Origin: a virus
Length of the DNA: 64,000 nt
Reading direction: 5' to 3' (one strand)
IMG/VR virus record: IMGVR_UViG_3300042549_009448
Coordinates: 1 to 64,000 of that record
Each line of letters begins with the position of its first letter. Position 1 is the first letter of the stretch. This document shows positions 1-31,828 of the stretch, piece after piece. A program made the position numbers and the translations under genes. The notes below the pieces were generated by a model. The model saw only the letters and a list, made by a program, of their open reading frames with translations. It was not told where the DNA came from and did not search any database.

Positions 1-225
1 CTGAAGTTCCAGAACCGGAAGTTCCAGAAGAACCTGAAGTTCCAGAACCGGAAGTTCCAGAAGAACCTGAAGTTCCAGAACCGGAAGTTCCAGAAGAACC
101 TGAAGTTCCAGAACCGGAAGTTCCAGAAGAACCTGAAGTTCCAGAACCGGAAGTTCCAGAAGAACCTGAAGTTCCAGAACCGGAAGTTCCAGAAGAACCT
201 GAAGTTCCAGAACCGGAAGTTCCAG
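1..225. repeat. 33-bp tandem repeat, six copies plus a partial one
   Basis: A 33-base unit beginning CTGAAGTTCCAGAACCGG repeats perfectly head to tail from the window edge. Because 33 is a multiple of three, copy-number change keeps the minus-strand fibre in frame and would only lengthen or shorten the shaft. There are no unique spacers. Confidence 0.95.
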
Positions 226-886
226 AGCTTCCTGACGTGCCGGGTGTACCGGCTGATCCTGATGTACCCGATGATCCGCTTGTTCCTGAAGATCCAGATT
301 CTCCTGAAGATCCGCTTGTTCCTGAAGATCCGCTTGTTCCTGAAGATCCAGATTCTCCTGAAGATCCGCTTGTTCCTGAAGATCCGCTTGTTCCTGAAGA
401 TCCGCTTGTTCCTGAAGATCCAGATTCTCCTGAAGATCCACTAGATCCTGAGCCACCTGATGTGCCTGAAGAACCAGAGCTTCCTGACGTGCCTGACGTT
501 CCAGCTGAGCCGGACGTTCCAGAAGAACCAGCCGTTCCACTTGAGCCGCTTGTTCCAGAGCTTCCTGATGTTCCAGATGTTCCTGAAGTTCCAGATGAAC
601 CTGATGTTCCAGATGTTCCAGAGCTTCCTGAAGCTCCACTTGACCCTGAAGAACCTGAAGGTCCTGAAGATCCGCTTGAACCTGAAGTGCCTGATGTTCC
701 ATCCGATCCACTTATTCCAGAGGTTCCTGAACTTCCAGATATTCCACCGCTACCTGAACTACCAGTTTGTGGAGAATCATTCCATGAAAGATTTCCATTG
801 GAGTCAATTACTAAAAATCGGGTCTTGGCATTATCTTGGGTGACTCCGCTGAGGTCGACTTGTTTTATTTTGATTTTATGAGACAT
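1..886 (-). CDS. Gly-Ser-Thr-repeat tail fibre/adhesin, partial at left edge
   Basis: The minus strand is open from an ATG at 886 to the window edge, giving 295 codons without a stop. It starts MSHKIKIKQVDLSGVTQD, has a short non-repetitive head with LVIDSNGNLSWND, and then becomes almost pure Gly/Ser/Thr. The last part is an 11-residue unit, GSSGTSGSGTS, repeated about seven times. The N-terminal style resembles that of the other fibre proteins in this window, such as the one at 1943-4423. An ATAAATAAC late-promoter-like motif lies about 30 bases upstream. A short out-of-frame ATG at 902 would encode only eight residues and overlap the start, so 886 is preferred. The C-terminus, which would carry any receptor-binding domain, is outside the window. 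Fibre function is inferred from composition and context. The Pro-Glu-Val-rich reading on the other strand is its antisense shadow. Confidence 0.75.
   Translation of the reverse strand, partial: MSHKIKIKQVDLSGVTQDNAKTRFLVIDSNGNLSWNDSPQTGSSGSGGISGSSGTSGISGSDGTSGTSGSSGSSGPSGSSGSSGASGSSGTSGTSGSSGTSGTSGTSGSSGTSGSSGTAGSSGTSGSAGTSGTSGSSGSSGTSGGSGSSGSSGESGSSGTSGSSGTSGSSGTSGSSGESGSSGTSGSSGTSGSSGESGSSGTSGSSGTSGSAGTPGTSGSSGTSGSGTSGSSGTSGSGTSGSSGTSGSGTSGSSGTSGSGTSGSSGTSGSGTSGSSGTSGSGTSGSSGTSGSGTS
273..434. repeat. 18-bp tandem repeat inside the fibre gene, nine units
   Basis: Nine units of 18 bases alternate between two forms, GATCCGCTTGTTCCTGAA and GATCCAGATTCTCCTGAA. The order is one B form after every one or two A forms. 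On the minus strand each unit adds six Gly/Ser/Thr residues. The higher-order pattern suggests past duplication of larger blocks. Confidence 0.9.
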
Positions 887-915
887 TCAACTGGACTTGC
901 ATTTTTCTACTAAAG

Positions 916-925
916 TTATTTATCA
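916..925 (-). promoter_or_regulatory. T4-late-like promoter for the repeat fibre
   Basis: On the minus strand this reads TTGATAAATAACTTTAG. It matches the ATAAATAAC motif found before other late genes here and resembles the T4 late promoter TATAAATA. It ends 29 bases before the fibre start at 886. Confidence 0.6.
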
Positions 926-945
926 ACCCTAAGCCTATAAATGAG

Positions 946-1902
946 CTAGCCTCTTTTTTCTTGAGTATATAAAATTGCTTCAACGTATTTAGCGGAAGCA
1001 GTATCAGGTTTAACAAAACTTAGATCTGCGGCAAATGGGCTTGAATCCCTAAAGTCGGCTTTATAGAATAGCTCAGTGGACCTGTCGCCAGTTACTCCAG
1101 CATTGTGCATAATATTACAACTCTCGTAATCTGAGATTGACGAAGTTCCCCAGCTAAAATCCAAGTCAGGAGTGACGATTGTTTGAGCTCCCATCTTCCA
1201 TGCTCCCCAAAGAACTGACCACATGTCCGCACACCATTTTTGCACTGGATTATAGGTTTTTAATTCGTCGGCGGATAGAGTTTTACGTTCTTCATTTTCT
1301 CGATCCGACATGTATTTGTATAGTAATAAGGAGTCTTCCTTAACCTCTTGCCAAAAATCAGCAGTAACTCCTTTCATTAGATACTGTGCACCACCTGAGC
1401 CCTCCTCATTCTTCTCAACCGTCTCTGGTGGAATTTTTGATAAACTACATAGATCTAGAAAAAGATCCTCAGACTTGCTCTTTATGTAGTTAGCACCAAT
1501 GTATGAGACCGTATCACTTAGGTACCAATACAAGTCGCTATGCATTGAATCAAAATCCGGAAGTTTTCTAAAGATAATATCTGAATCATGATAGAACACA
1601 GTTTCACCACGAAGTTCTGGGAATCGTCTAAAGTGTTGTTCTAAAATATCAGGTCTGAGAATTGGAATGTAACCGAAATTATCCTTTACTGTTTTTTCAT
1701 AGAAAAAGAATCTAACGGTTGGATATTTAGTCGCAAGAGCAAGGCCCTCGTATGAGGGATTGCCTGAGTATGCCCAAAGAATTTCAATCCAATTTGGATT
1801 AATTCCAAGCTTAATAAAATTATTGATTAGTACTTCAACTTGCCAATGAAAGTACGGATGATCCGGTTGAGCGGACATGAAAATCGTCTTCTTAGTTAAC
1901 AT
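946..1902 (-). CDS. Glycosyltransferase-like protein (GT-A type, DSD motif)
   Basis: A protein of 318 residues with no signal peptide. It begins with an IFMSAQPDHPYFHWQVEV segment, like the start of nucleotide-diphospho-sugar transferases of the arabinosyl/galactosyl type. A DxD-type metal/nucleotide-sugar motif, HDSD at about residues 105-108, lies in a hydrophobic strand (TVFYHDSDIIF). Trp-rich stretches follow (WCADMWSVLWGAWKMG). It lies 40 bases downstream of the poly-Thr fibre gene in the same direction and has no motif of its own, so it is probably co-transcribed with that gene. A natural guess is glycosylation of the Thr/Ser-rich fibres on either side, but modification of phage DNA or host surface glycans cannot be excluded. 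Family membership is moderately supported; the acceptor is unknown. Confidence 0.55.
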   Translation of the reverse strand: MLTKKTIFMSAQPDHPYFHWQVEVLINNFIKLGINPNWIEILWAYSGNPSYEGLALATKYPTVRFFFYEKTVKDNFGYIPILRPDILEQHFRRFPELRGETVFYHDSDIIFRKLPDFDSMHSDLYWYLSDTVSYIGANYIKSKSEDLFLDLCSLSKIPPETVEKNEEGSGGAQYLMKGVTADFWQEVKEDSLLLYKYMSDRENEERKTLSADELKTYNPVQKWCADMWSVLWGAWKMGAQTIVTPDLDFSWGTSSISDYESCNIMHNAGVTGDRSTELFYKADFRDSSPFAADLSFVKPDTASAKYVEAILYTQEKRG

Positions 1903-1942: not shown

Positions 1943-4423
1943 TTATGGAGCTGCAGTGGTCGTAGTCGTCGTAGGAGCTGCAGTGGTCGTAGTCGTCGTA
2001 GGAGCTGCAGTGGTCGTAGTCGTCGTAGGAGCGGCTGTTGTAGTCGTTGTTGTTGGTGCGGCAACCGTAACTGAGTAATTGCAGCCAAATAGACCAATTG
2101 TCCAGGTTCCATAAGGTGGCGATACTGATATTGGTCCAATTTCGGTAGTTGAGCCAAGGTCAGTAATTTGATAGCTTCCCTCAGGTGGTGTGTATGCAAA
2201 AGGAGTAGTTACGCTAACTTGATTTGGAGCAATAGGAGCCGTATTTACTGTGAAAGTTACTTGACCTGAATCAGCGAAATACGTGAAATTATATGGAGTA
2301 CACGTTGTAGTACTTGTGGTAACCGCAGCAGTCGTGGTCGTTGTTGTAGCGGCAGTTGTTGTTGTAGTCGTGGTTGGAGCGATCGTTGTCGTAGTTGTTG
2401 TTACTCCATAGCTTGCACAGTTAATTTGAGTAATCACTTGATTATCATAGTCAAAATTATAACAGTATTCACAAATTCCACCATTTATTACAATTTTAAA
2501 CTGAACGTTTTGAGTTATTCCAGTTACATTGTAACCATCAGGAGTTGAACCAGCAAAGACCAAGTTATTATCTACAGCCAGCTCGTAAGGAACTCCGGTA
2601 GGACCAAAAATTCCTACTCTTACGTGATCATAGTTTGCAATAACCATATCTATCGAAAATAGGCTACAATAATTTGTGGTAGTTGTGGTAGTCGCAGCCG
2701 CAGTCGTTGTGGTCGTCGTTGGCGCAACCGTTGTTGTAGTTGTAGTAGGGGAGGCTACCGTAGTAGTCGTCGTTGTTGGAGCGGAGGTCGTTGTGCTAGT
2801 AGTAGAGGTGCTAGTAGTCGTTGCGGCCGCAGTCGTTGTGGTGGTTGTTGCTCCAGCTACAACGTTAACTGAATATTCACAACCACTTAGTGTTGTGAAT
2901 GTATAGGTTCCATATACCGAACTTATTCCAGCGTTCGCATATTCAGTATTAAGGCGATTGAATATCCATGATAGACTGATGTTTACTCCGTGTAGGGCAG
3001 TTAGATCATAACTTCCTCCAGCCGTTGGATAGAAAATTACCGTGTATGGACCGCTTGGTGTTCCAACAAAATTTACAATATTTGAATTTATCGAATTAGC
3101 GACGATTGAACCTGGCGAGCAGGTTGTTGTAGTCGTTGTCGGTGGAATGGTTGTGGTTAACACCGGAGTTAACGTTGTGGTTGAGGTGGTTGTGGTTAAC
3201 ACCAACGGAATCAAAAAGAAAGGACTAAATGAGGTTACTTGTGCGTATATCGTTCTAGTTGAATAGTTTTGAGCATAGGGTCCAACTAAAACAGTTTCAT
3301 CAACGTAAATTCCGCCAACCTCATGAAATATTCTAACTGCATTGAATGTGGAAAGACTTATTGATTGTGGTAGTGTAAATCCTATTATTGCGCCAATTGC
3401 CAATGGCGTTGTAATATCGTAGGCTAACAAAGTATTGCTTAAGTAATAACCTGCAGGTAGGCTTGAGCCTGGTGGATTTACCGTAGGTACTGGAACTTGA
3501 CACACAGTAATTGGTGAGCTTGCGTTAACTGCTGTATCTAAAACGATAGTTACTCCTTGTTGCGGAAACGGCAGTGTCGCATTACCGGTGGTCACTATAT
3601 TAGTTAAGCAGCTAATGCCAGCTGCTCCACAATACGGATCAGCTGATGAATATACTAAGGTCACTAGGTCATTTGAATCAAGTCCATAACCAGCAACTGA
3701 GGTATTCCAATAAAGTTCGTCGGTTGAATCTACTAATCCATAATTAGAAGCAGTTACTCCATTGTCCTTGCTAAAGTAGGCTGGAGCGGAATCATCTCCA
3801 TTTCCAACTATTATTTGTTGGCCATTCACAAAAAGTAGGTATTCGCTAGTCGATAATGGAGCAGGCATTGGTAATAGCCCATCCGACACCAGAGCACCGT
3901 CTCCAGTAATAACGTTTGGAACAGCAGATCGTGTGATTGCTGCTCTACAGGCACCACCGCCTCCACCTGAAAGTAAAGTCCAACCGGTTGAAACTAAGTA
4001 TCCGTAAAATCCTTCAACTCTACCGCTTTGAGATGTGATGTAAACGATTTCTCCAGGAATTCCAGTTGGAGGTAGAACTCCGTAAACCTTTAGTCTTAAT
4101 CTTTTTCCCTCTAGTACATCCTCAACGACAACGTTCTTGGCAGTGACTGCTCCAGTCGGATACATCTTTATCACTTCCGGATAAATTCCGCCGGCCTGTT
4201 GAGCGCCGTACACGGTTAAACCCTGTCTAAGTTTAATCGTGTCCGCCGTAATTCCATGAATGTCAACGGTCACGCCAGTGGTCTGGTCGTAGTTTATTGA
4301 AGTTAAAAATTCATCAAGTGCTGTCTTTAATGTGTTAAAATTAAGATTAGACAGGTCTACTACTGAGCTTAAGCTCGTCCCGTTGATTGATTTTATACTT
4401 GAAATTTTTACTTTTACTGACAT
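1943..4423 (-). CDS. Poly-threonine-linker tail fibre/adhesin
   Basis: A protein of 826 residues beginning MSVKVKISSIKSINGTSL, the same style as the fibre at 886. The first 400 or so residues are a non-repetitive virion-type region (phage fibre context, GGGGGACRAAI stretch). The rest is three similar domains of about 80-90 residues. Each starts with Cys after a linker and ends in a CEYSV or CNYSV-type strand. Linkers of TTTTTT with Ala, Pro or Val separate them, and the protein ends in four TTTTTTAAP-like units. The domains look like small beta-sandwich modules with paired cysteines. A late-promoter motif lies 28 bases upstream. The glycosyltransferase-like gene follows. The receptor-binding role is an inference; the low-complexity linkers are seen directly. 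Confidence 0.7.
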   Translation of the reverse strand: MSVKVKISSIKSINGTSLSSVVDLSNLNFNTLKTALDEFLTSINYDQTTGVTVDIHGITADTIKLRQGLTVYGAQQAGGIYPEVIKMYPTGAVTAKNVVVEDVLEGKRLRLKVYGVLPPTGIPGEIVYITSQSGRVEGFYGYLVSTGWTLLSGGGGGACRAAITRSAVPNVITGDGALVSDGLLPMPAPLSTSEYLLFVNGQQIIVGNGDDSAPAYFSKDNGVTASNYGLVDSTDELYWNTSVAGYGLDSNDLVTLVYSSADPYCGAAGISCLTNIVTTGNATLPFPQQGVTIVLDTAVNASSPITVCQVPVPTVNPPGSSLPAGYYLSNTLLAYDITTPLAIGAIIGFTLPQSISLSTFNAVRIFHEVGGIYVDETVLVGPYAQNYSTRTIYAQVTSFSPFFLIPLVLTTTTSTTTLTPVLTTTIPPTTTTTTCSPGSIVANSINSNIVNFVGTPSGPYTVIFYPTAGGSYDLTALHGVNISLSWIFNRLNTEYANAGISSVYGTYTFTTLSGCEYSVNVVAGATTTTTTAAATTTSTSTTSTTTSAPTTTTTTVASPTTTTTTVAPTTTTTTAAATTTTTTNYCSLFSIDMVIANYDHVRVGIFGPTGVPYELAVDNNLVFAGSTPDGYNVTGITQNVQFKIVINGGICEYCYNFDYDNQVITQINCASYGVTTTTTTIAPTTTTTTTAATTTTTTAAVTTSTTTCTPYNFTYFADSGQVTFTVNTAPIAPNQVSVTTPFAYTPPEGSYQITDLGSTTEIGPISVSPPYGTWTIGLFGCNYSVTVAAPTTTTTTAAPTTTTTTAAPTTTTTTAAPTTTTTTAAP
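1947..2027. repeat. 27-bp tandem repeat at the 3' end of the poly-Thr fibre gene
   Basis: Three perfect copies of a 27-base unit starting GGAGCTGCAGTGGTCG are followed by a degraded fourth. On the minus strand each encodes nine residues, mostly Thr with Ala-Ala-Pro. Identity at the base level implies recent duplication, whereas the other poly-Thr linkers use varied codons. Confidence 0.9.
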
Positions 4424-4478: not shown

Positions 4479-5831
4479 TTATTTTAGGAGTCTCTTACTG
4501 CCCTTTGCGGTGCCGGCAATAATCTCTGTTTTATTATCAACTTCTGAGTCTAGCGCAATTACGCCAGATCTCACAATGCACTCATTTAGATCAGCATAAA
4601 TGATACTATCTGGAGAACAGTTAATGTAACTTAAATCAATTCGGTTTGCGCCACCTCTCTCAAATAGACAATCGTCTAGATGAGAATATCGGATATCATT
4701 ATTGGTTAGGATTCGACACTCTGCGATTCTAGAAGATCTAACTTTACAGCTATGTAACATGCAATGAGACAGCTCAGCCTCAATTGAACAATTAATAAAA
4801 TCTAAATCATGTAGCGAGAATCCCTCCTTAATGATTGAGTCCTTGACCTGCACTCTTTTTGAGTCAGTATCGTAATTCAATTTGCCCTTTTTCATTTTAC
4901 CAAAGGTTATTAGGTCAAATAGACTTTCTCTTAAGTTATTGTAGTTGGACTCAACTATTCTAGGATCGTCCTTTAGGTCAATGTAAAGCTCAATATCTGG
5001 AAAATTCTTTATGAAATTTTCATAAGTTTTTAGGGCCAACGTATTGTGCCTTTGTAGCTTAATAACGTCATTGATCTTTTTCTGGTCTTCGATTGAATAG
5101 GCGGTATTTGAGGTTAGGGTCTCATATAACTTCTCAGACATGTAATTTATTAGATTCGTTGCATCAGCTCTACGCGTTTGGTATTCAGGTCCACCTGCAT
5201 ACCTAATCTCAAGATAACCCTCTCTTAACTTTTCAAAGTTTAGGCCAAAGTACTTAGATTGAGGAAAGGCAAAGTCCATTGGATTTCCAGGTTTTGCATA
5301 AGGTAATGCGTTCTCGGAAACGAATTTATCTTTTGGATAGATGTTACTAACCGAGTTTTTATAAATTCTCTGAATTCTAGATTTTGCAGAAGGCCACATT
5401 TCAAATATCTTTTCCTCGTTAAGAGAAAGGATACACTTGAAAACATTTAGATTCTCAAGTCTTTCAGTTAGGCCCATATCAAATTCATTAAATGACAAGT
5501 TAATGTGAAGTCCTGTACGGTCGGTTGTGAATCCATTCTCATCGATAAAATTCATCACCTTGTACATGATATGAATTGCTTCAGAATAGGGCATTACTCC
5601 AGTTACAAGTTCATTCATTTTAAATCCACCTGAAAAGTCAGCTTCAAGTTTGAATTGGTCTCTTGACACTGGCAGGTCTGATCGATATTCGTCAGTCCAT
5701 GCGATATCCTTATTGAGTGCAGTTTTTAATTTCTCTGCAAGCTCCTCTCGTGGAATCGGCGAAAAGAATTCGAACTCGAATCCTAAGTTAACATTGTCGA
5801 AGATTTTTGATTTGGTTAAGTCTTTGTACAT
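4479..5831 (-). CDS. Amidoligase-like enzyme with pentapeptide-like C-terminal tail
   Basis: The N-terminal two thirds of this 450-residue protein fit the putative amidoligase (COOH-NH2 ligase, glutamine-synthetase-like fold) family. GFEFEF at 17-22 matches the family's opening GxExEF strand. LEADFSGGFKMNELVTGVM at about 62-80 matches the 'D-S ... G-x-E-L-V-(S/T)' segment. TGLHINLSF at 106-114 matches the GxHxN/H strand, and GYLEIRYAGG at 205-214 the conserved ExR strand. Known members join carboxyl and amino groups with ATP. Residues of about 330-440 look like a right-handed beta-helix or pentapeptide-type region rich in Cys and Asp (LHDLDFINCS, LSHCMLHSC, DLSYINCS). The gene starts four bases after the stop of the upstream virion gene, so it is expressed late. 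Substrate unknown; possible roles are cross-linking virion protein or modifying peptidoglycan-type peptides. Confidence 0.6.
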   Translation of the reverse strand: MYKDLTKSKIFDNVNLGFEFEFFSPIPREELAEKLKTALNKDIAWTDEYRSDLPVSRDQFKLEADFSGGFKMNELVTGVMPYSEAIHIMYKVMNFIDENGFTTDRTGLHINLSFNEFDMGLTERLENLNVFKCILSLNEEKIFEMWPSAKSRIQRIYKNSVSNIYPKDKFVSENALPYAKPGNPMDFAFPQSKYFGLNFEKLREGYLEIRYAGGPEYQTRRADATNLINYMSEKLYETLTSNTAYSIEDQKKINDVIKLQRHNTLALKTYENFIKNFPDIELYIDLKDDPRIVESNYNNLRESLFDLITFGKMKKGKLNYDTDSKRVQVKDSIIKEGFSLHDLDFINCSIEAELSHCMLHSCKVRSSRIAECRILTNNDIRYSHLDDCLFERGGANRIDLSYINCSPDSIIYADLNECIVRSGVIALDSEVDNKTEIIAGTAKGSKRLLK

Positions 5832-5835
5832 AATA

Positions 5836-7908
5836 TTATAAGTTTATTGCAATGAATGGTAAGTTTAATCTTGGTCTAGCATTGTCAATTATTTCAAGCA
5901 GAGATTCGTCTCTAACAAAGAGTTGACTCACTATGAATTCATGATCCTCTTCCTGAACCATTGTGTTGAATAGTCGTATATTTGCAATTGAGTAATTGGC
6001 ACTAGGTAGGGTCCAATTTTCGGTTGTCTCAAAAGAAAATTGACCAGTCTTCACTGAATTTGAATAGACGCTAATTAGCCTATTAAAGTTTTTTACATTT
6101 GCTGGATCTTGCCCAAATGAATAAAAATTGACTTCAAGTTGGCCGTATTGAGCGGACACTGGAATTATTACTGAATACCACTTATCATAATTTAGAGTTC
6201 CGACCGGAAATGCGCGATTGGTTCCGTTGATATTAACATAAGTAGTCACAGTTGCAGTTAATCCGTCAATATCAACTAGATTACAGGTAATTGTCATTCC
6301 CTTTTCTTGAAAATTATCGAATCCATCGATTAACTTTATTGATTGGGTGCCTTTGTTAAATTTGACTAGCGCACTAAAAGTCATGTTTGGAGTATTAACA
6401 GTCGATGCAACTGCTTTATAAACTACCGCATTCTCTGACTGCTTGAATTGAAAAACTCCAGCCGAAAATTCGGTAATGTCTCTACGCTCGCTTGGGTTAA
6501 GTCCTAAATTCTTGTAACCTTCAACCGCCACATATTTTCCAGTAGCTGAGTTATAGGAAGCCTTAGGCCCATTCATTTTAATTGGTAAAAGTTTGCCCGA
6601 ACTACTTACGGTAGAGTCTCCTGTATTTAGCCTTCGCGCTGTCCAGGCTTCGTAAATTTTGCTATCTTGGTAAGCATATATTGTGTAAGGTTGACTAGGC
6701 GTAAGCTCTTGGTCAGAAGTAGTCCCATCCGATACTGCGGTATAGCTAACAATCGAGGGTTTAACTCCACTCATATCATAGTAATACTCAATCAAAGGTG
6801 CATAGTTGAAAGTATAGTCTAAAATCTTATTGCTTAAGTCCGGATGAATTGATCGGCGAGTCTCATCGAATTTATGAGATATCGTCTTGTATTGTTTCTT
6901 GTCAAGAGCGTCCTTTGTTTGGACCTCTGCCGGTTTACCGAATAGTTCATCGCTTGTCATGATGATGTTGTCTAGGAATCTGCGATCCTCAGTTTTCATT
7001 AACATGTCAATGTTTGGACTGAATTTAGTTAATTGTATTTTCCAGTAGAGAGGTTCCATCATGAATCCCCTAAATAGATAAGATCCTTGAATCTCATACA
7101 TTCTATTGGTTAACGGAAAGTACATGTAATCTCTTTTGCGAGGCTGAGTATCCGGTCCAAATATTGACTGAAAGTATATGTGATCTATATGAATCTCAAA
7201 TGGAATTTCAAAATCAACTCCAAACTCCGTAAAGTTAGGCTTGTTATCTGGAAAAGTATTATTGGGTACGACGACCTTAACGCATTTGCGATCAGTTGTT
7301 TTGAAAAGAGTCCATTCCTTAAATATGAAATCTCCACCGTCTCTATCCGGCTCAGTTTTAAAGTAGACGACTTCATGTCCAAATAGCTTATTGGTTTGTA
7401 GGCTAAGTTCCTTTGCGATACCGATTGCGGTACCAACCTCATACGGCTTGAAACTTGCCTCTCTTTCAGCAATAATTGCTGGACATCTTTCGGTTGAACA
7501 ATAAACGGTTGGCGTGAATAGTGATTCAGCAACGTAAGTACTGCTTATGCGAAATTTAACAGAATTGACAGTTAGGGGTGTTGTAATTTGATTATAAGTA
7601 GTATCATCATACTCGTACTTTACTTCTAAAAAGACCGGTGCATCTCCGAAAGTTAGAACAGAAAGTTCGCTTAGATCAGCTGGTGAGAATGGATACCATA
7701 GTGACCAATTTCCACGGTCAGAAGAGTATCTCATTTTACGAATGATATTTGATGAACTTGCACTACCTAGGTCAAGGTCTTCGTCAAAGCCAACGATATT
7801 GAGTGCACCAGGTACAGGTTCTCCAGTAGAAAAAATTCTGTAATTCTTACTGTAGGTGATGGTGTTTTTCGGAGGCTCCGGAATTACCTTGTAGGTGATT
7901 ACTTGCAT
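5836..7908 (-). CDS. Virion structural protein, tail/baseplate region
   Basis: A protein of 690 residues that I do not recognise by name. The N-terminal half has strand-rich, Tyr/Pro-rich segments typical of phage baseplate or fibre-attachment proteins (MRYSSDRGNWSLWYPF, PRKRDYMYFPLTNRMYEIQG). About residues 490-680 resemble a LamG/concanavalin-type beta sandwich (MTFSALVKFNKGTQSIKLIDG, YDKWYSVIIPVSAQYGQLEVNFY, SIANIRLFN). It is the first gene after the divergent gap with the plus-strand gene at 7988 and is followed at once by the amidoligase-like gene. It has its own late-promoter-like motif. Structural assignment comes from size, composition and neighbours. Confidence 0.55.
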   Translation of the reverse strand: MQVITYKVIPEPPKNTITYSKNYRIFSTGEPVPGALNIVGFDEDLDLGSASSSNIIRKMRYSSDRGNWSLWYPFSPADLSELSVLTFGDAPVFLEVKYEYDDTTYNQITTPLTVNSVKFRISSTYVAESLFTPTVYCSTERCPAIIAEREASFKPYEVGTAIGIAKELSLQTNKLFGHEVVYFKTEPDRDGGDFIFKEWTLFKTTDRKCVKVVVPNNTFPDNKPNFTEFGVDFEIPFEIHIDHIYFQSIFGPDTQPRKRDYMYFPLTNRMYEIQGSYLFRGFMMEPLYWKIQLTKFSPNIDMLMKTEDRRFLDNIIMTSDELFGKPAEVQTKDALDKKQYKTISHKFDETRRSIHPDLSNKILDYTFNYAPLIEYYYDMSGVKPSIVSYTAVSDGTTSDQELTPSQPYTIYAYQDSKIYEAWTARRLNTGDSTVSSSGKLLPIKMNGPKASYNSATGKYVAVEGYKNLGLNPSERRDITEFSAGVFQFKQSENAVVYKAVASTVNTPNMTFSALVKFNKGTQSIKLIDGFDNFQEKGMTITCNLVDIDGLTATVTTYVNINGTNRAFPVGTLNYDKWYSVIIPVSAQYGQLEVNFYSFGQDPANVKNFNRLISVYSNSVKTGQFSFETTENWTLPSANYSIANIRLFNTMVQEEDHEFIVSQLFVRDESLLEIIDNARPRLNLPFIAINL

Positions 7909-7924
7909 TAATAAATCCTTTTTG

Positions 7925-7934
7925 TTATTTATCG
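7925..7934 (-). promoter_or_regulatory. T4-late-like promoter for the 690-residue virion gene
   Basis: The minus strand reads GCGATAAATAACAAAAAG, ending 16 bases before the ATG at 7908. The leader is shorter than at the other sites. The site lies in the 79-base divergent gap before the plus-strand gene at 7988. Confidence 0.55.
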
Positions 7935-7987
7935 CAGCAGATTCAGGTTTTAGCCGTCAAATAAATAATAAGAAAATCGGGGTATCA

Positions 7988-8779
7988 ATGAAACCTTTAA
8001 ACCCCAAGCTTGTGCTAGACCCAATGTGGCTTTGTCAAGCGAATTTTGTTGACCTAGAGTATTACACGTACATTCTCTTGGACGCGAAGCAGAAGTATCT
8101 CACTAACTTAGATAGTGACTTTTCCAACTTTTACGAAATAGTTTTCCATTACCTAAATTTAAACACGGTAATAGCTGATAAAAAGGTGTACGATTCACAT
8201 TTGAATGTGGTTAGGTCACACGAAAAGTTAATGGAAATAGTAACTCAATTGGCCCAGTCGGATGACTCTAATGGGAAGAATATCGTTAAGGCATGCTCGT
8301 CAATCCTGTCTGAGGTAATGGAGTCTTATCTAAAGAAACAGATTCCTGTGTTAGAACATATTCACTTTCATCTAAATAACAATCAAATACACAAGCAAGA
8401 TGTGATCTATATTGTTAGTAAGTCCACTAAATTGGACAGATATGAAGTTTACCGATTAAATCTAAAAAGCAAATGCAATCTAGGTTACTCAATCACACGA
8501 AAAGCAGTATTGGATTTACCGGGTCTAAAGAATTCAGAGTTTAAGGCCAGGCTGCTTGAGGCAAAGCCTAATTTAAAAGATTTTAATCCTGACCAGAACG
8601 TGATAGTTGTTTCAGGCACTGATCATGTTGTGCTATCTGATGGAATTTGTCTTGCAAAGGACATTATTTTGGTCAATCGCATCATGAAACCAGTCCATGG
8701 ATTTGATGCTAATGTTCTACTGGATTACAGCCGAATGCTTGAAAAAAAGAAGGCTATTCCCTTTAAATTAAAGGCTTAA
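7988..8779 (+). CDS. Unknown protein, lone plus-strand gene in the late cluster
   Basis: This gene encodes 263 residues starting MKPLNPKLVLDPMWLCQ. An in-frame ATG at 7895 would overlap the divergent gene and add a poor, Bacteroidetes-unlike leader, so the start at 7988 is chosen. The protein is mixed alpha/beta with no transmembrane segment and no catalytic motif that I recognise. It contains HIHFHLNNNQIH near the middle and many Lys residues at the end. It reads against the surrounding structural genes, overlaps the end of the collagen-like fibre gene by four bases, and lacks the late motif on its own side. It is therefore more likely an early or regulatory gene than a virion part. No function is proposed. 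Confidence 0.7.
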   Translation: MKPLNPKLVLDPMWLCQANFVDLEYYTYILLDAKQKYLTNLDSDFSNFYEIVFHYLNLNTVIADKKVYDSHLNVVRSHEKLMEIVTQLAQSDDSNGKNIVKACSSILSEVMESYLKKQIPVLEHIHFHLNNNQIHKQDVIYIVSKSTKLDRYEVYRLNLKSKCNLGYSITRKAVLDLPGLKNSEFKARLLEAKPNLKDFNPDQNVIVVSGTDHVVLSDGICLAKDIILVNRIMKPVHGFDANVLLDYSRMLEKKKAIPFKLKA

Positions 8780-11553
8780 TTGGCAGTTTCGTACGTAAAG
8801 TGGCACTGAAACCTGATAAGCTTGTCCTGATAATTGCTGTCCGCTGGAGCCGATGTTGGAACCCACGCTTCGTATATGCAATCAAAGGCGGTAACTGGAC
8901 TTAATTTACTTGTACCGGCATTACGACTAGCGAAGCCTGAATTACTAAACGCATCCACTCCTTTAACATCTCTTTCGCCAAAGAATAGTGCAGCTGGGGA
9001 ATAGCTTGATGAACCGCTGAGTAATCTGGTCTGAACCTTGCCGAGTCTAATTTCGGACTTTCCAGTTGGGTTGATTGGTAACGCATTGGCCGTTAGGCCT
9101 ACAGCGCCAGAGGTTGAAACGTCTCCGCCGGTTGCCACACCAGCAGTATAAGTTAGGGGATTCTGATATAATGCTGGATACTGTATGACTGGATAGGTTG
9201 GGCTGGACCCAAAAGACGGATTCACATTATTGTCTATTTGTAGATTAAAACTACCGGCGAGCACAGTGTCGCTAAGACGATCTTCCATTCCGGTGGGTAG
9301 TATCGCACCCACTGAACCTGCAGTCGGCTCAAGGTGTGTTCCAAACGGTAGAGTAAGCCCTATTGCACAGCTATCGAGCCAAGTCCCATTTGTAGCATAT
9401 AAGAAATCACAACGACTTGCATTTGAACCGGCAGTATATACTGAAGTCGGTGTGGTGGCTGCGAATGTTCCAGTATAAGTTGTTGTTATCCAGTTAAATG
9501 TAGGGCTAATCGTGAAATTTACCCAACATGTCACCTTTTTTCCAATCTTAACGTATTGTGCGTATTCAACTGTGATTGGAATATCGCGGTATGTATAACT
9601 TGACCCTGATCCAATAGGTCCGTATAGTCCAACTTCTTCAACCAGACCGCCTGTTGTGTAATATGCTCTAGCTGGATTAGCATAACTAGCTAAGTCACCT
9701 GACGTAGTGGTCATAAGTCTCTTAAATGATGGGTTTGAGTTTGCTAGATTTTGTAGGGCTCCACCGTAAAGTGTTGGAGTCCATGTGCCTTCTTCATAAT
9801 CATCGAGCGTATTTGAATCAGCCGATGCAACTTGAGTTACTGGGAATGGCAGACCTTGTGCGAGGCGATTCTCTTTTACGACGACTGCATTGTTTAGTGA
9901 AATTGTTGCAGTTGCATTTTGAGTTTCAAGTTTAAGATCACCATTGACGGTTGTTATTTTCCAGGTTGTTCCAACTCCTCCGGTGTAATCGATCTCGTTT
10001 GTTTTTAGGGTTGAGCTACCTATTACGATATTCCTATTGAAATTGAATGTCACTCCACTTGGCGCATCGAAATCAATTGAGTTATTATTCGCTGGATTAA
10101 ATCCTATTCCAAAGTAATTAACGGCTAAACCTGCTCCAAAGCTTGCACCTCTCTTAAAGAATAAACCGTCAACCGACACGCCGGCAGCAAATGCGGTAGC
10201 CTCGGTGTTTTCTATTATATGCTCGTTCGTCAATTTCATTTCAACTGTTCGGCCAACTGATTGCGAAGTACCGGCCTTGTTGATTAACCATCGGTGCTCG
10301 CTGTTTCTTCGAGGTGAGAATGACTCAGCGACCTCACTTCCGCTTGAGGAAAGATCGTATTCAGCTCGGAGCATATAGTCTCCAGGATTGGCAGTAGTTC
10401 CACCACTGATTGTGAAACCTCCTAATCGGTATTTTCGAATTCTTAAGTTTTCAAAGCTTGGACTAATCAAGAAGCTTTGAGAAGTAATTCCAGTATATGC
10501 AGTTGATAGAGTGTCTACTGAACCTAGTTCAATTTGACCTCTGTAACCCTTTGAGTTTGGATCAGTTTCAAATTCTTTTGCGGCAGACGCCGTGCTGTTA
10601 AAGAAAGAGTAAACCGATAAATTTGAAGTTTGTGGAAATATGCTGTCTACTGAGGCTGGATAAGTTATGAATTTATGAGGAGATCCTGAATTACCTAAAC
10701 TAGTTAGGTCAATTACCGGAGTACCAGCTAAAGCATAGGCATAGGTTTCACAAAGAGAGAATACTGTTCCACTAGAAGCATACACGTAATATCCTCCATT
10801 ATTTGTTAATCCGCCGATTGATGTACCGCCCTCATTAGAATAGGTTACGAATTGGCCAGTAGTTAAGCCGTGTCCAGCCGACACAGTTATTTGATTATTA
10901 GTCAAACTTACAACCGACGAACTACTTGCATTAAATGATACTTCGGTTGATGAATTTGCAATCGCTGCAATGTTTGAGGAGACTAATGCTAATGAGCGTG
11001 TTTTTAACTCATTGAAATTATAGAGAACGGTTTGATAATTTGTTCCTAATCCTGGAATTACAAAGTTAGGGTCTCCGCTAGTCGCGCTATTTGTTAAATC
11101 TAAGCCTGCTGTAACTCTAGGTTTTACGACTCTAGAAGAGGCTCCCAATCTAACGTACGGAGAAATATTTGTACCTAGTGCGGTTTGAACTAGCGTATTG
11201 AAATCTGTCAATACTTCCCAACCATAGAGATTAGATCCACTGGTTAATACCTTTTTAAAAACTTTGTCAGCTGTGATTAAAACATCGCCGGTTCTAATAC
11301 CAGACGGTGCACCAGATGGTGCGCTTGTGGCGGCGGTTGCTGGAGTTGTTCCGTAAATAACTGAGCCAGTTTCACCAATTGGGCCGATTGGGCCGATTGG
11401 GCCAGCCGGGCCGATTGGGCCAGTTAGGCCAGTTGGACCAGTTGCACCTATGCCGAGTGCAATTAATTGATTAAAGTTGAAGTTTACTTTATTTGAGACA
11501 TCAACTTGACTATCGGTTGCGAATATCTCCTTTAAATTTATAATGATTGCCAT
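8776..11553 (-). CDS. Collagen-like tail fibre protein
   Basis: A protein of 925 residues. After a short N-terminal attachment-like segment (MAIIINLKEIFATDSQVDV) comes a Gly-X-Y collagen-like stretch at about 36-64 (GATGPTGLTGPIGPAGP). A long strand-rich region rich in Ser, Thr, Gly and Asn follows, typical of trimeric phage fibres. The N-terminal segment resembles that of the fibres at 886 and 4423, consistent with attachment to a common baseplate site. Its ATG shares one A with the stop codon of the 2077-residue gene upstream, so the two are translated together. The 3' end overlaps the plus-strand gene at 7988-8779 by four bases. Host-recognition role inferred. Confidence 0.75.
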   Translation of the reverse strand: MAIIINLKEIFATDSQVDVSNKVNFNFNQLIALGIGATGPTGLTGPIGPAGPIGPIGPIGETGSVIYGTTPATAATSAPSGAPSGIRTGDVLITADKVFKKVLTSGSNLYGWEVLTDFNTLVQTALGTNISPYVRLGASSRVVKPRVTAGLDLTNSATSGDPNFVIPGLGTNYQTVLYNFNELKTRSLALVSSNIAAIANSSTEVSFNASSSSVVSLTNNQITVSAGHGLTTGQFVTYSNEGGTSIGGLTNNGGYYVYASSGTVFSLCETYAYALAGTPVIDLTSLGNSGSPHKFITYPASVDSIFPQTSNLSVYSFFNSTASAAKEFETDPNSKGYRGQIELGSVDTLSTAYTGITSQSFLISPSFENLRIRKYRLGGFTISGGTTANPGDYMLRAEYDLSSSGSEVAESFSPRRNSEHRWLINKAGTSQSVGRTVEMKLTNEHIIENTEATAFAAGVSVDGLFFKRGASFGAGLAVNYFGIGFNPANNNSIDFDAPSGVTFNFNRNIVIGSSTLKTNEIDYTGGVGTTWKITTVNGDLKLETQNATATISLNNAVVVKENRLAQGLPFPVTQVASADSNTLDDYEEGTWTPTLYGGALQNLANSNPSFKRLMTTTSGDLASYANPARAYYTTGGLVEEVGLYGPIGSGSSYTYRDIPITVEYAQYVKIGKKVTCWVNFTISPTFNWITTTYTGTFAATTPTSVYTAGSNASRCDFLYATNGTWLDSCAIGLTLPFGTHLEPTAGSVGAILPTGMEDRLSDTVLAGSFNLQIDNNVNPSFGSSPTYPVIQYPALYQNPLTYTAGVATGGDVSTSGAVGLTANALPINPTGKSEIRLGKVQTRLLSGSSSYSPAALFFGERDVKGVDAFSNSGFASRNAGTSKLSPVTAFDCIYEAWVPTSAPADSNYQDKLIRFQCHFTYETAN

Positions 11554-28140: not shown

Positions 28141-28560
28141 TCATATCGTGTAGATCTCGCTCTCGCCTGAATGGCTTAACGAAACAAACTCTACTTTCTC
28201 TCCCTTGCCAATGTGCTTATAGATCTTTTTATATTCCTTTGCATAGCCATTTTTTGCGATCTGCGTGAAGTAGGCAAAGGCATTGTTTGACTTTTCTTCA
28301 TTGAAATTTCGCCAGTACCTCAGCAGATCAAGTAGAGCTGATTGAATACAGTCCTCTTTGTCTAAAGGGTTACTGAATCTGAGCTTTAAGATTGCGCGGT
28401 TTGCTAAAATTATAAAATAGTTGATTGCAATCGGCGAAAGTTCACCAGTTTTGTGTTGATAACCGGTGGCTTCGTTTAAGAGTCCGTGCTTACACCGAAT
28501 TATTTCATTTGTGAAGTCTCTATTATTGATGTAGTACTTACTTTCCTTGGCTTTTGACAT
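28141..28560 (-). CDS. gp55: Late-transcription sigma factor, T4 gp55 homologue
   Basis: A protein of 139 residues that aligns by eye with T4 gp55. The N-terminal KYYINNRDFTNEIIRCK corresponds to gp55's YVNNKELLQAIIDWK. The ILANRAILKLRFSN ... EDCIQSALLDLLRYWRNFNE segment and the NAFAYFTQIAKNGYAKEYKK segment correspond to gp55's sigma region-2-like helices ([22 protein letters not shown]). It should direct host RNA polymerase to late promoters, of which there are good candidates in this window. T4 gp55 is about 185 residues and ends in a sliding-clamp-binding tail; this protein is shorter and its end (SHSGESEIYTI) lacks an obvious SLDFLYE-like tail. It follows the RuvC-like gene by three bases. 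Confidence 0.88.
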   Translation of the reverse strand: MSKAKESKYYINNRDFTNEIIRCKHGLLNEATGYQHKTGELSPIAINYFIILANRAILKLRFSNPLDKEDCIQSALLDLLRYWRNFNEEKSNNAFAYFTQIAKNGYAKEYKKIYKHIGKGEKVEFVSLSHSGESEIYTI

Positions 28561-30244: not shown

Positions 30245-31828
30245 GTGAATCAAACTAAATTTAAGGCAGAAGCCAGACAACAATTAGCCATCGGTATTAA
30301 TGCATTGGCTGAAGCGGTCAAGGTAACGTTAGGCCCAAGAGGTCGTAATGTTGTTATTGCTCGTAACAACAGTGTTGCAATAACAAAGGATGGAGTAACT
30401 GTTGCTCGTGAAGTTCAGCTTGAGGACTACATGGAAAACGTTGGAGCTCAACTAATTAAACAGGTTGCAAATAAAGTTGCAATGGAAGCTGGCGACGGTA
30501 CAACCACCGCGACCGTTCTTGCACATGCAATCTTTACTGAGGGTAACCGATTGATCGAGACAGGGTCTCATCCAATGGATCTTAAAAAGGGGATCGAGAT
30601 TGGAATGAAACTCATCATCGATAATTTAAAAGAACAGGCTCAAAAGGTAGAGGACTTTGAAAAAATTAGACAAGTTGCAACAATTTCCGCAAATAACGAT
30701 GAAGAAATTGGATCAATTATTGCTGATGCAATGAAGGCTGTAGGATTCGACGGAATCATTACGGCGAGTGAAAGTAAAACTGGTGAAACTTTCGTTGAAA
30801 TAGTTGAGGGTATGCAATTCCAAAATGGCTACTTGTCTCCATATTTCATTACTAATCCGGAAAGAAACACCGTTGAGTTTGAAAAACCTTTAATTCTAGT
30901 ATATGATGGTAAGATTTCAAATCTATCGGACATGCTACAATTTTTAGAGCACTCAAACAAACAAAGACGTCCACTATTAATAATTAGCGATGGAGTTGAT
31001 GGCGAAGCCTTAAACACTCTACTTGTTAATAAACTACAGGGAACTTTAAAAGTAGCCGCCGTTAAATCACCAGGATTTGGAGAACAACGCCGTTTTAAAC
31101 TACAGGACATTGCTACCTTAACTGGTGGAAAATTAATTTCTGAGTTAGACGGAGTTACTCTTAAAGAGGCAGTTGCCACGGACTATGTTGGCGGCTGTGA
31201 TAAGGTCACAATCGCATCAGATTCAACCACAATAATCGGTGGATTTGGAACAGCTGATGCAATTGCTGAATTAACAAATGACCTAAAGTCGCAAATTCAA
31301 GCATGTGAGTCTGAAACTACTAAACTCCTATTAAAGGAAAGACTTTCTAAATTTGAGGGAGGTGTTGCAATTATTAAAATTGGAGCAACTTCTGAGCTTG
31401 AAGCTAGAGAAAAAGCAGATCGAATTGATGATGCATTAGGCGCAACTAGAGCAGCAGTTGCTGAAGGTATCGTTATGGGTGGAGGACTTGCCCTAGTCAA
31501 GGCAGTAAACTCATTCAAATACGCTTCGCCTAATCGAGATATTGCACTAGGCGTAGAATTAATTAAGAAAGCTTGCAATCAGCCGTTCCGTTCAATTTTA
31601 GAAAACGCTGGAGTCAATCCAGATATCGTGCTCAGTAAAATTAACGATGGTGCTCCAGGTTACAATGCTAAAACTGAGGAATATGTTGACATGATTGATA
31701 ACGGAATTATTGATCCAGTTAAAGTTACTCGAACTGCTCTAGAGAATGCGGTTTCAATCGCAGGCCTTTTAATCACAACTGACTGCCTAATGGTACAAAA
31801 ACCCCAAATGAACTCTCAAGTTCAATAA
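30245..31828 (+). CDS. groEL: Chaperonin GroEL
   Basis: A protein of 527 residues aligning along its length with bacterial GroEL. The ATP site GDGTTTAT is at 83-90, with VTLGPRGRNVVI at about 27-38 upstream. The apical domain contains SPYFITNPERNTVEFE, and the catalytic region is RIDDALGATRAAVAEG at about 395-410. The GGM-rich C-terminal tail of bacterial GroEL is absent; the protein ends in MVQKPQMNSQVQ. The start is GTG. It should fold virion or replication proteins together with the phage GroES at 45298, which lies 13 kb away rather than adjacent as in bacteria. Confidence 0.95.
   Translation: MNQTKFKAEARQQLAIGINALAEAVKVTLGPRGRNVVIARNNSVAITKDGVTVAREVQLEDYMENVGAQLIKQVANKVAMEAGDGTTTATVLAHAIFTEGNRLIETGSHPMDLKKGIEIGMKLIIDNLKEQAQKVEDFEKIRQVATISANNDEEIGSIIADAMKAVGFDGIITASESKTGETFVEIVEGMQFQNGYLSPYFITNPERNTVEFEKPLILVYDGKISNLSDMLQFLEHSNKQRRPLLIISDGVDGEALNTLLVNKLQGTLKVAAVKSPGFGEQRRFKLQDIATLTGGKLISELDGVTLKEAVATDYVGGCDKVTIASDSTTIIGGFGTADAIAELTNDLKSQIQACESETTKLLLKERLSKFEGGVAIIKIGATSELEAREKADRIDDALGATRAAVAEGIVMGGGLALVKAVNSFKYASPNRDIALGVELIKKACNQPFRSILENAGVNPDIVLSKINDGAPGYNAKTEEYVDMIDNGIIDPVKVTRTALENAVSIAGLLITTDCLMVQKPQMNSQVQ

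Follow-up and report, generated by a model that had tools for sequence, protein, structure and literature searches.

The amidoligase genes of phages are commonly taken to serve metabolism or superinfection, whereas the branch considered here is tied to virion genes. What might an enzyme of this kind do among the parts of a phage particle? The question is raised by a 64,000-nt stretch of DNA (the window), which corresponds to positions 1-64,000 of the 180,030-base and possibly incomplete IMG/VR virus record IMGVR_UViG_3300042549_009448. On its minus strand, an open reading frame at 4479-5831 had been predicted to encode an amidoligase-like enzyme with a beta-helix-like tail.

Family assignment and predicted structure

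The frame starts with ATG, is separated by 4 bases from the stop codon of the upstream gene and gives the sole match to Amidoligase_2 (Pfam PF12224) in the whole 180,030-base record. This Pfam family is said to have been described by Iyer et al. in 2009 as predicted amidoligases of the glutamine-synthetase fold. The 450-aa protein matched it over residues 14-165 with 23.5 bits (E 6.1e-5), above the curated cut-off of 22 bits. A relative in genome G001 reached 30.9 bits over profile positions 3-225, and 24 of 32 diverse family members matched at E <= 0.01 (best 3.8e-10). The original prediction had assigned the protein to the amidoligase group on the basis of four blocks, GFEFEF, ELVT, GLHINLSF and YLEIRYAGG, and had named a profile search as the check; the match above is the outcome of that search, all four blocks are present and the key residues are fixed in 90 non-redundant homologues. 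As judged from sequence, these blocks represent a genuine amidoligase-family signal and no chance pattern. The features of the gene are as follows.

4479..5831, minus strand: amidoligase gene (P0001), 450 aa; Pfam PF12224 above cut-off, AlphaFold2 model, family profile E 1.2e-200
5766..5783, minus strand: GFEFEF block, residues 17-22; E19 and E21, presumed ExE metal-ligand motif; both fixed in 90/90
5601..5612, minus strand: ELVT block, residues 74-77; E74, presumed metal ligand; fixed in 90/90
5490..5513, minus strand: GLHINLSF block, residues 107-114; H109, presumed metal ligand, and N111
5190..5216, minus strand: YLEIRYAGG block, residues 206-214; E208 (metal, presumed) and R210 (ATP phosphate, presumed); both fixed in 90/90
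4893..5792, minus strand: predicted glutamine-synthetase-fold catalytic region, residues 14-313; Pfam residues 14-165, Foldseek against PDB
4521..4886, minus strand: predicted C-terminal pentapeptide-like beta-helix, residues 316-437; AlphaFold2, PDB profile and Foldseek matches; N319 and R421 fixed in 90/90

The metal and ATP roles of E19, E21, E74, H109, E208 and R210 are our assumption by analogy with glutamine synthetase. Absence of the ATP-binding residues had been named beforehand as evidence against the assignment, and the presumed metal/ATP residues E19, E21, E74, E208 and R210 were retained in all 90 sequences. The full set of fixed positions comprised G17, E19, E21, D65, S67, E74, K193, N198, E208, R210, N319 and R421. 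Position 109 was H in 73 members and Q in the other 17, and a quick tree placed the Q state as two changes, one in a 16-row clade and one in L164.

The AlphaFold2 model (mean pLDDT 87.9, pTM 0.84) shows helices and strands as far as residue ∼313 and short strands at 316-437. A Foldseek search of PDB placed glutamine synthetases on top (E 7e-5, prob 1.0) and also retrieved YbdK and gamma-glutamylcysteine synthetases, which are thus the nearest solved folds; the whole-chain TM against glutamine synthetases was about 0.25, low as would be expected of a two-part protein and a distant relation. Among viral models, an uncultured phage supplied the best match, a protein without a name (TM 0.90, 35% identity); many phage amidoligases came next. 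The window record has no match to PF00120 (Gln-synt_C), and true PF00120 genes occupy separate loci in three huge phages. For the moraphage 'glutamine synthetase' genes (PMC12619734), no link to the amidoligase family could be established.

The tail (residues ∼316-437) was modelled with pLDDT mostly above 90. In a PDB sequence profile search with the family, the catalytic domain was unmatched and the pentapeptide-like tail alone was found, with solved pentapeptide proteins as matches (best E 2.3e-6). Foldseek matched the tail to AlbG, MfpA and Qnr at low TM; the predicted strands and these matches may reflect a right-handed quadrilateral beta-helix like that of pentapeptide-repeat proteins, but the window protein falls far under the Pfam pentapeptide cut-offs (Pentapeptide_4, 15 bits versus 38). 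Since N319 and R421 are unvarying, the tail appears to be needed. The tail of the original prediction was therefore borne out as a prediction, and the structure modelling suggested with it yields a glutamine-synthetase-type domain fused to a pentapeptide-like beta-helix. In literature on amidoligases together with pentapeptide repeats, the sole match treats another superfamily, as far as its accessible text goes.

Family members were found in more than 500 viral contigs (at least 530 relatives in one profile scan and 327 in another), and the family carries no name in PHROGs or NCBIfam, where the window protein had no match. A tblastn search of a phage collection gave six records at 28-33% identity, all from uncultured phages of 462-735 kb; LR756501 and LR756503 share their length and match position, and the six records therefore represent five distinct huge-phage genomes. 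A scan of bacterial and archaeal genomes gave a single relative, on a contig binned with uncultured Bacteroidetes. By profile search, 19 of 20 records had one match, and a 642-kb phage had a second, weak one: a possible paralogue in L098 (4754-5848, minus strand; E 7.2e-6) that has no Pfam match. An NCBIfam polymerase-epsilon match of L078 (21 versus 245 bits) and a PADLOC match to PglX (E 0.001, one helical stretch) were dismissed as chance. The gene is under strong purifying selection, with a whole-gene dN/dS of 0.024-0.025 against two close relatives and low values in both halves; more distant pairs were mostly saturated at synonymous sites.

Gene neighbourhood in the window and in huge phages

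In the clade of the window, the gene order is fibre, antisense gene, neck Hc2, amidoligase and Thr-rich protein. These neighbours are as follows.

8776..11553, minus strand: collagen-like fibre protein, 925 aa; PHROG tail fibre E 1.5e-4; kept in 25 loci
7895..8779, plus strand: antisense gene, 294 aa, between fibre and neck genes; same place and strand in 23 loci
5836..7908, minus strand: upstream gene, 690 aa, T4 gp14-like neck / head-closure Hc2 domain; phrog_679 E 1.2e-6, Pfam T4_neck-protein E 0.0024 (under cut-off)
1943..4423, minus strand: downstream Thr-rich mucin-like protein, 826 aa, probably structural; Pfam Mucin E 0.0014 (weak, under cut-off); directly downstream in 20 loci

In 35 loci of this clade the Hc2 neck gene is found upstream of the amidoligase, and in 32 of them the two are directly adjacent. 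The antisense gene had no family match in Pfam, PHROG, NCBIfam or PADLOC. The original prediction had placed the enzyme in a late virion operon beside fibre genes. The virion-gene setting holds, and it is wider than a fibre region, with the neck Hc2 gene upstream and neck and baseplate genes next to the relatives; the word 'late' rests on gene content, as the window contained 2 copies of the T4 late-promoter octamer against an expectation of 6.2 and thus showed no enrichment.

Several other genes of the window deserve mention. Next to the Thr-rich protein, 946-1902 (minus strand) encodes a 318-aa protein of phrog_4417 (function unknown) with a glycosyltransferase-like YHDSD stretch, and the two are possibly a glycosylated fibre and its enzyme. 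A frame with long GSSGTSG repeats, collagen-like or of low complexity, occupies 1-930 (minus strand) and runs past the window edge; a Pro-rich frame at 237-881 (plus strand) is its antisense. A late sigma factor-like gene (phrog_234) lies at 28141-28560 (minus strand) and a GroEL chaperonin gene (phrog_5725) at 30245-31828 (plus strand).

Beyond the window clade, several deep clades also have the amidoligase next to genes of the neck, baseplate or fibres, despite rearranged gene order. A search of huge phages gave 72 of 80 loci with a tail-gene family profile match in the stretch examined, a raw count that includes related phages and has no random-position baseline. These matches were mostly gp53 and an unnamed partner, or Ad2, in varying order and strand. 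Two separate clades share the order S1, amidoligase, Ad2 connector, gp25 and gp6; they lie on opposite sides of a midpoint root (used for drawing only), and this order may thus be the older arrangement. The idea of a single, constant neck-gene partner was rejected: in clade B records more than 60 kb separate the amidoligase from the Hc2 gene, and the Hc2 family gave no match to the Ad2 family. The immediate virion neighbour varies by clade, and therefore no single substrate gene is indicated. In clade B1, a gene with asparagine-synthase and GATase parts lies between the major capsid and baseplate genes (L096 7752-9161; L097 7449-8855).

Known amidoligases and the possible role of the enzyme

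The window family resembles Amidoligase_2 at large in motif order, fold and predicted ATP-dependent amide-bond formation; it differs in the added, predicted pentapeptide-like beta-helix, in its virion-gene linkage and in being found here almost only in phages. In the cassette of LUZ24 and Cellulophaga phage phi14:2, the amidoligase lies in the replication half with ATP-grasp, GATase and GGCT-type genes (in phi14:2 also a COOH-NH2 ligase), and that of phi14:2 stands apart from the structural genes confirmed by proteomics, whereas the gene in the window is surrounded by those for neck, fibre and tail. The cassette proteins score 24.0 bits (LUZ24 gp18) and 20.3 bits (phi14:2, just under 22) against Amidoligase_2. 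The family profile search did not find them, and hhalign of the family against the single LUZ24 and phi14:2 proteins gave no match. Class-II amidotransferase (PF13522) and GGACT (PF06094) genes were absent from the 180-kb, possibly incomplete window record (G000) and from its 270-kb relatives G001 and G002. In the window record, the search for these two partner families thus revealed neither an amine donor nor any partner enzyme.

A homologue from a cultured phage, found by the family profile, is AUZ94978.1 of the Agrobacterium jumbo phage Atu_ph07 (E 3.1e-16; annotated as hypothetical). This protein shares the motif residues and a virion-gene setting, being two genes from the portal gene and near prohead-core genes; it differs in lacking the beta-helix and in a large insertion after the first motif. 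As a query it found no further cultured phage. The virion proteome of Atu_ph07 is published, and the main text makes no mention of an amidoligase (PMC6102473).

Because of the virion-gene linkage and the missing cassette partners, we favour action on the phage's own virion. In this tentative account, which falls somewhat short of an even chance, the protein is an active carboxylate-amine ligase with a glutamine-synthetase fold, requires ATP and metal, and during assembly makes an amide bond on a virion protein of the phage. The E-x-E motif, E74, H/Q109, E208 and R210 would bind metal-ATP, a substrate carboxylate would be phosphorylated and then attacked by an amine, and the product would be an amidation, an attached amino acid or peptide, or a cross-link on the virion protein, with the beta-helix tail docking the enzyme on its target. 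Family membership, predicted fold, conserved residues and genomic setting are supported by the data; that the enzyme is active, that it acts on the virion, which bond it makes and that its tail docks on the target are inferred. The Pfam and fold matches, the invariant metal/ATP residues, a dN/dS of about 0.02, essentially one copy per genome and persistent virion-gene linkage argue for this account, as do the replication-module location of the described cassette and the position of the tailless Atu_ph07 homologue near a portal gene. The change of H109 to Q in one large clade, the variable virion neighbour and the lack of a detected partner enzyme in the window record argue against it. It should be noted that gene linkage reflects co-inheritance, not function.

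Two other roles are unlikely to a similar degree. First, the enzyme might modify the cell surface or peptidoglycan and so exclude competing phages. The phiEco32 amidoligase cassette has been proposed to modify the cell wall and to exclude superinfecting phages (PMC10580990, PMC11318856), and the Pfam family is shared with it, and the Asn-synthase/GATase gene of clade B1, 16-35 kb from the amidoligase on the same strand, makes a nitrogen-donor partner possible there. However, PF13522 and PF06094 are absent from the three records (which may be incomplete), the gene lies among virion genes and not in the replication half, and the family profile misses the LUZ24 and phi14:2 proteins. Second, the protein might be a minor virion component, held by its tail and delivered with the particle, that early in infection has the host envelope or a host protein as its target. 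Virion proteins often contain beta-helix modules, and the baseplate and neck gene linkage as well as the unvarying N319 and R421 would fit such a role; however, an enzyme that needs ATP would find none outside the cytoplasm, and the Atu_ph07 homologue has no beta-helix. Finally, a scaffold or assembly chaperone that retains the fold but is no longer catalytic, in the Q109 clade at any rate, might explain the two changes at position 109 (17/90) and the four clade-B1 records below the Amidoligase_2 cut-off or without a match, but it is improbable, as the acidic ligands and R210 are fixed even in the Q clade, a pattern not readily explained unless the protein uses nucleotide or metal.

Returning to action on the virion, the linkage to tail and neck genes in many huge phages suggests, though it does not prove, chemical modification of the particles by the phages themselves. 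A narrower form, in which huge tailed phages use an ATP-driven ligase of their own for the covalent amidation or cross-linking of a neck or baseplate protein, is less probable, well short of an even chance. If true, it would be an enzymatic, energy-dependent step of tail maturation, distinct from the cross-links of HK97 capsids, which are self-catalysed. More generally, the data point to a so far unrecognised step in which an enzyme takes part in the construction or use of the tails of the largest phages known. They also provide concrete targets: residues to mutate, neighbours as candidate substrates and a cultured homologue in Atu_ph07.

As a separate observation, several huge-phage frames in L014-L018 (L014 4787-5476 and 13937-14320; L017 1807-2280) start with a MKYIKEYEEFLNE-like sequence. 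A loose form of this pattern occurred in none of the window frames and in 11 of 188 huge-phage frames, compared with 0.15 in shuffles, and resembles the T4 capsid-targeting sequence.
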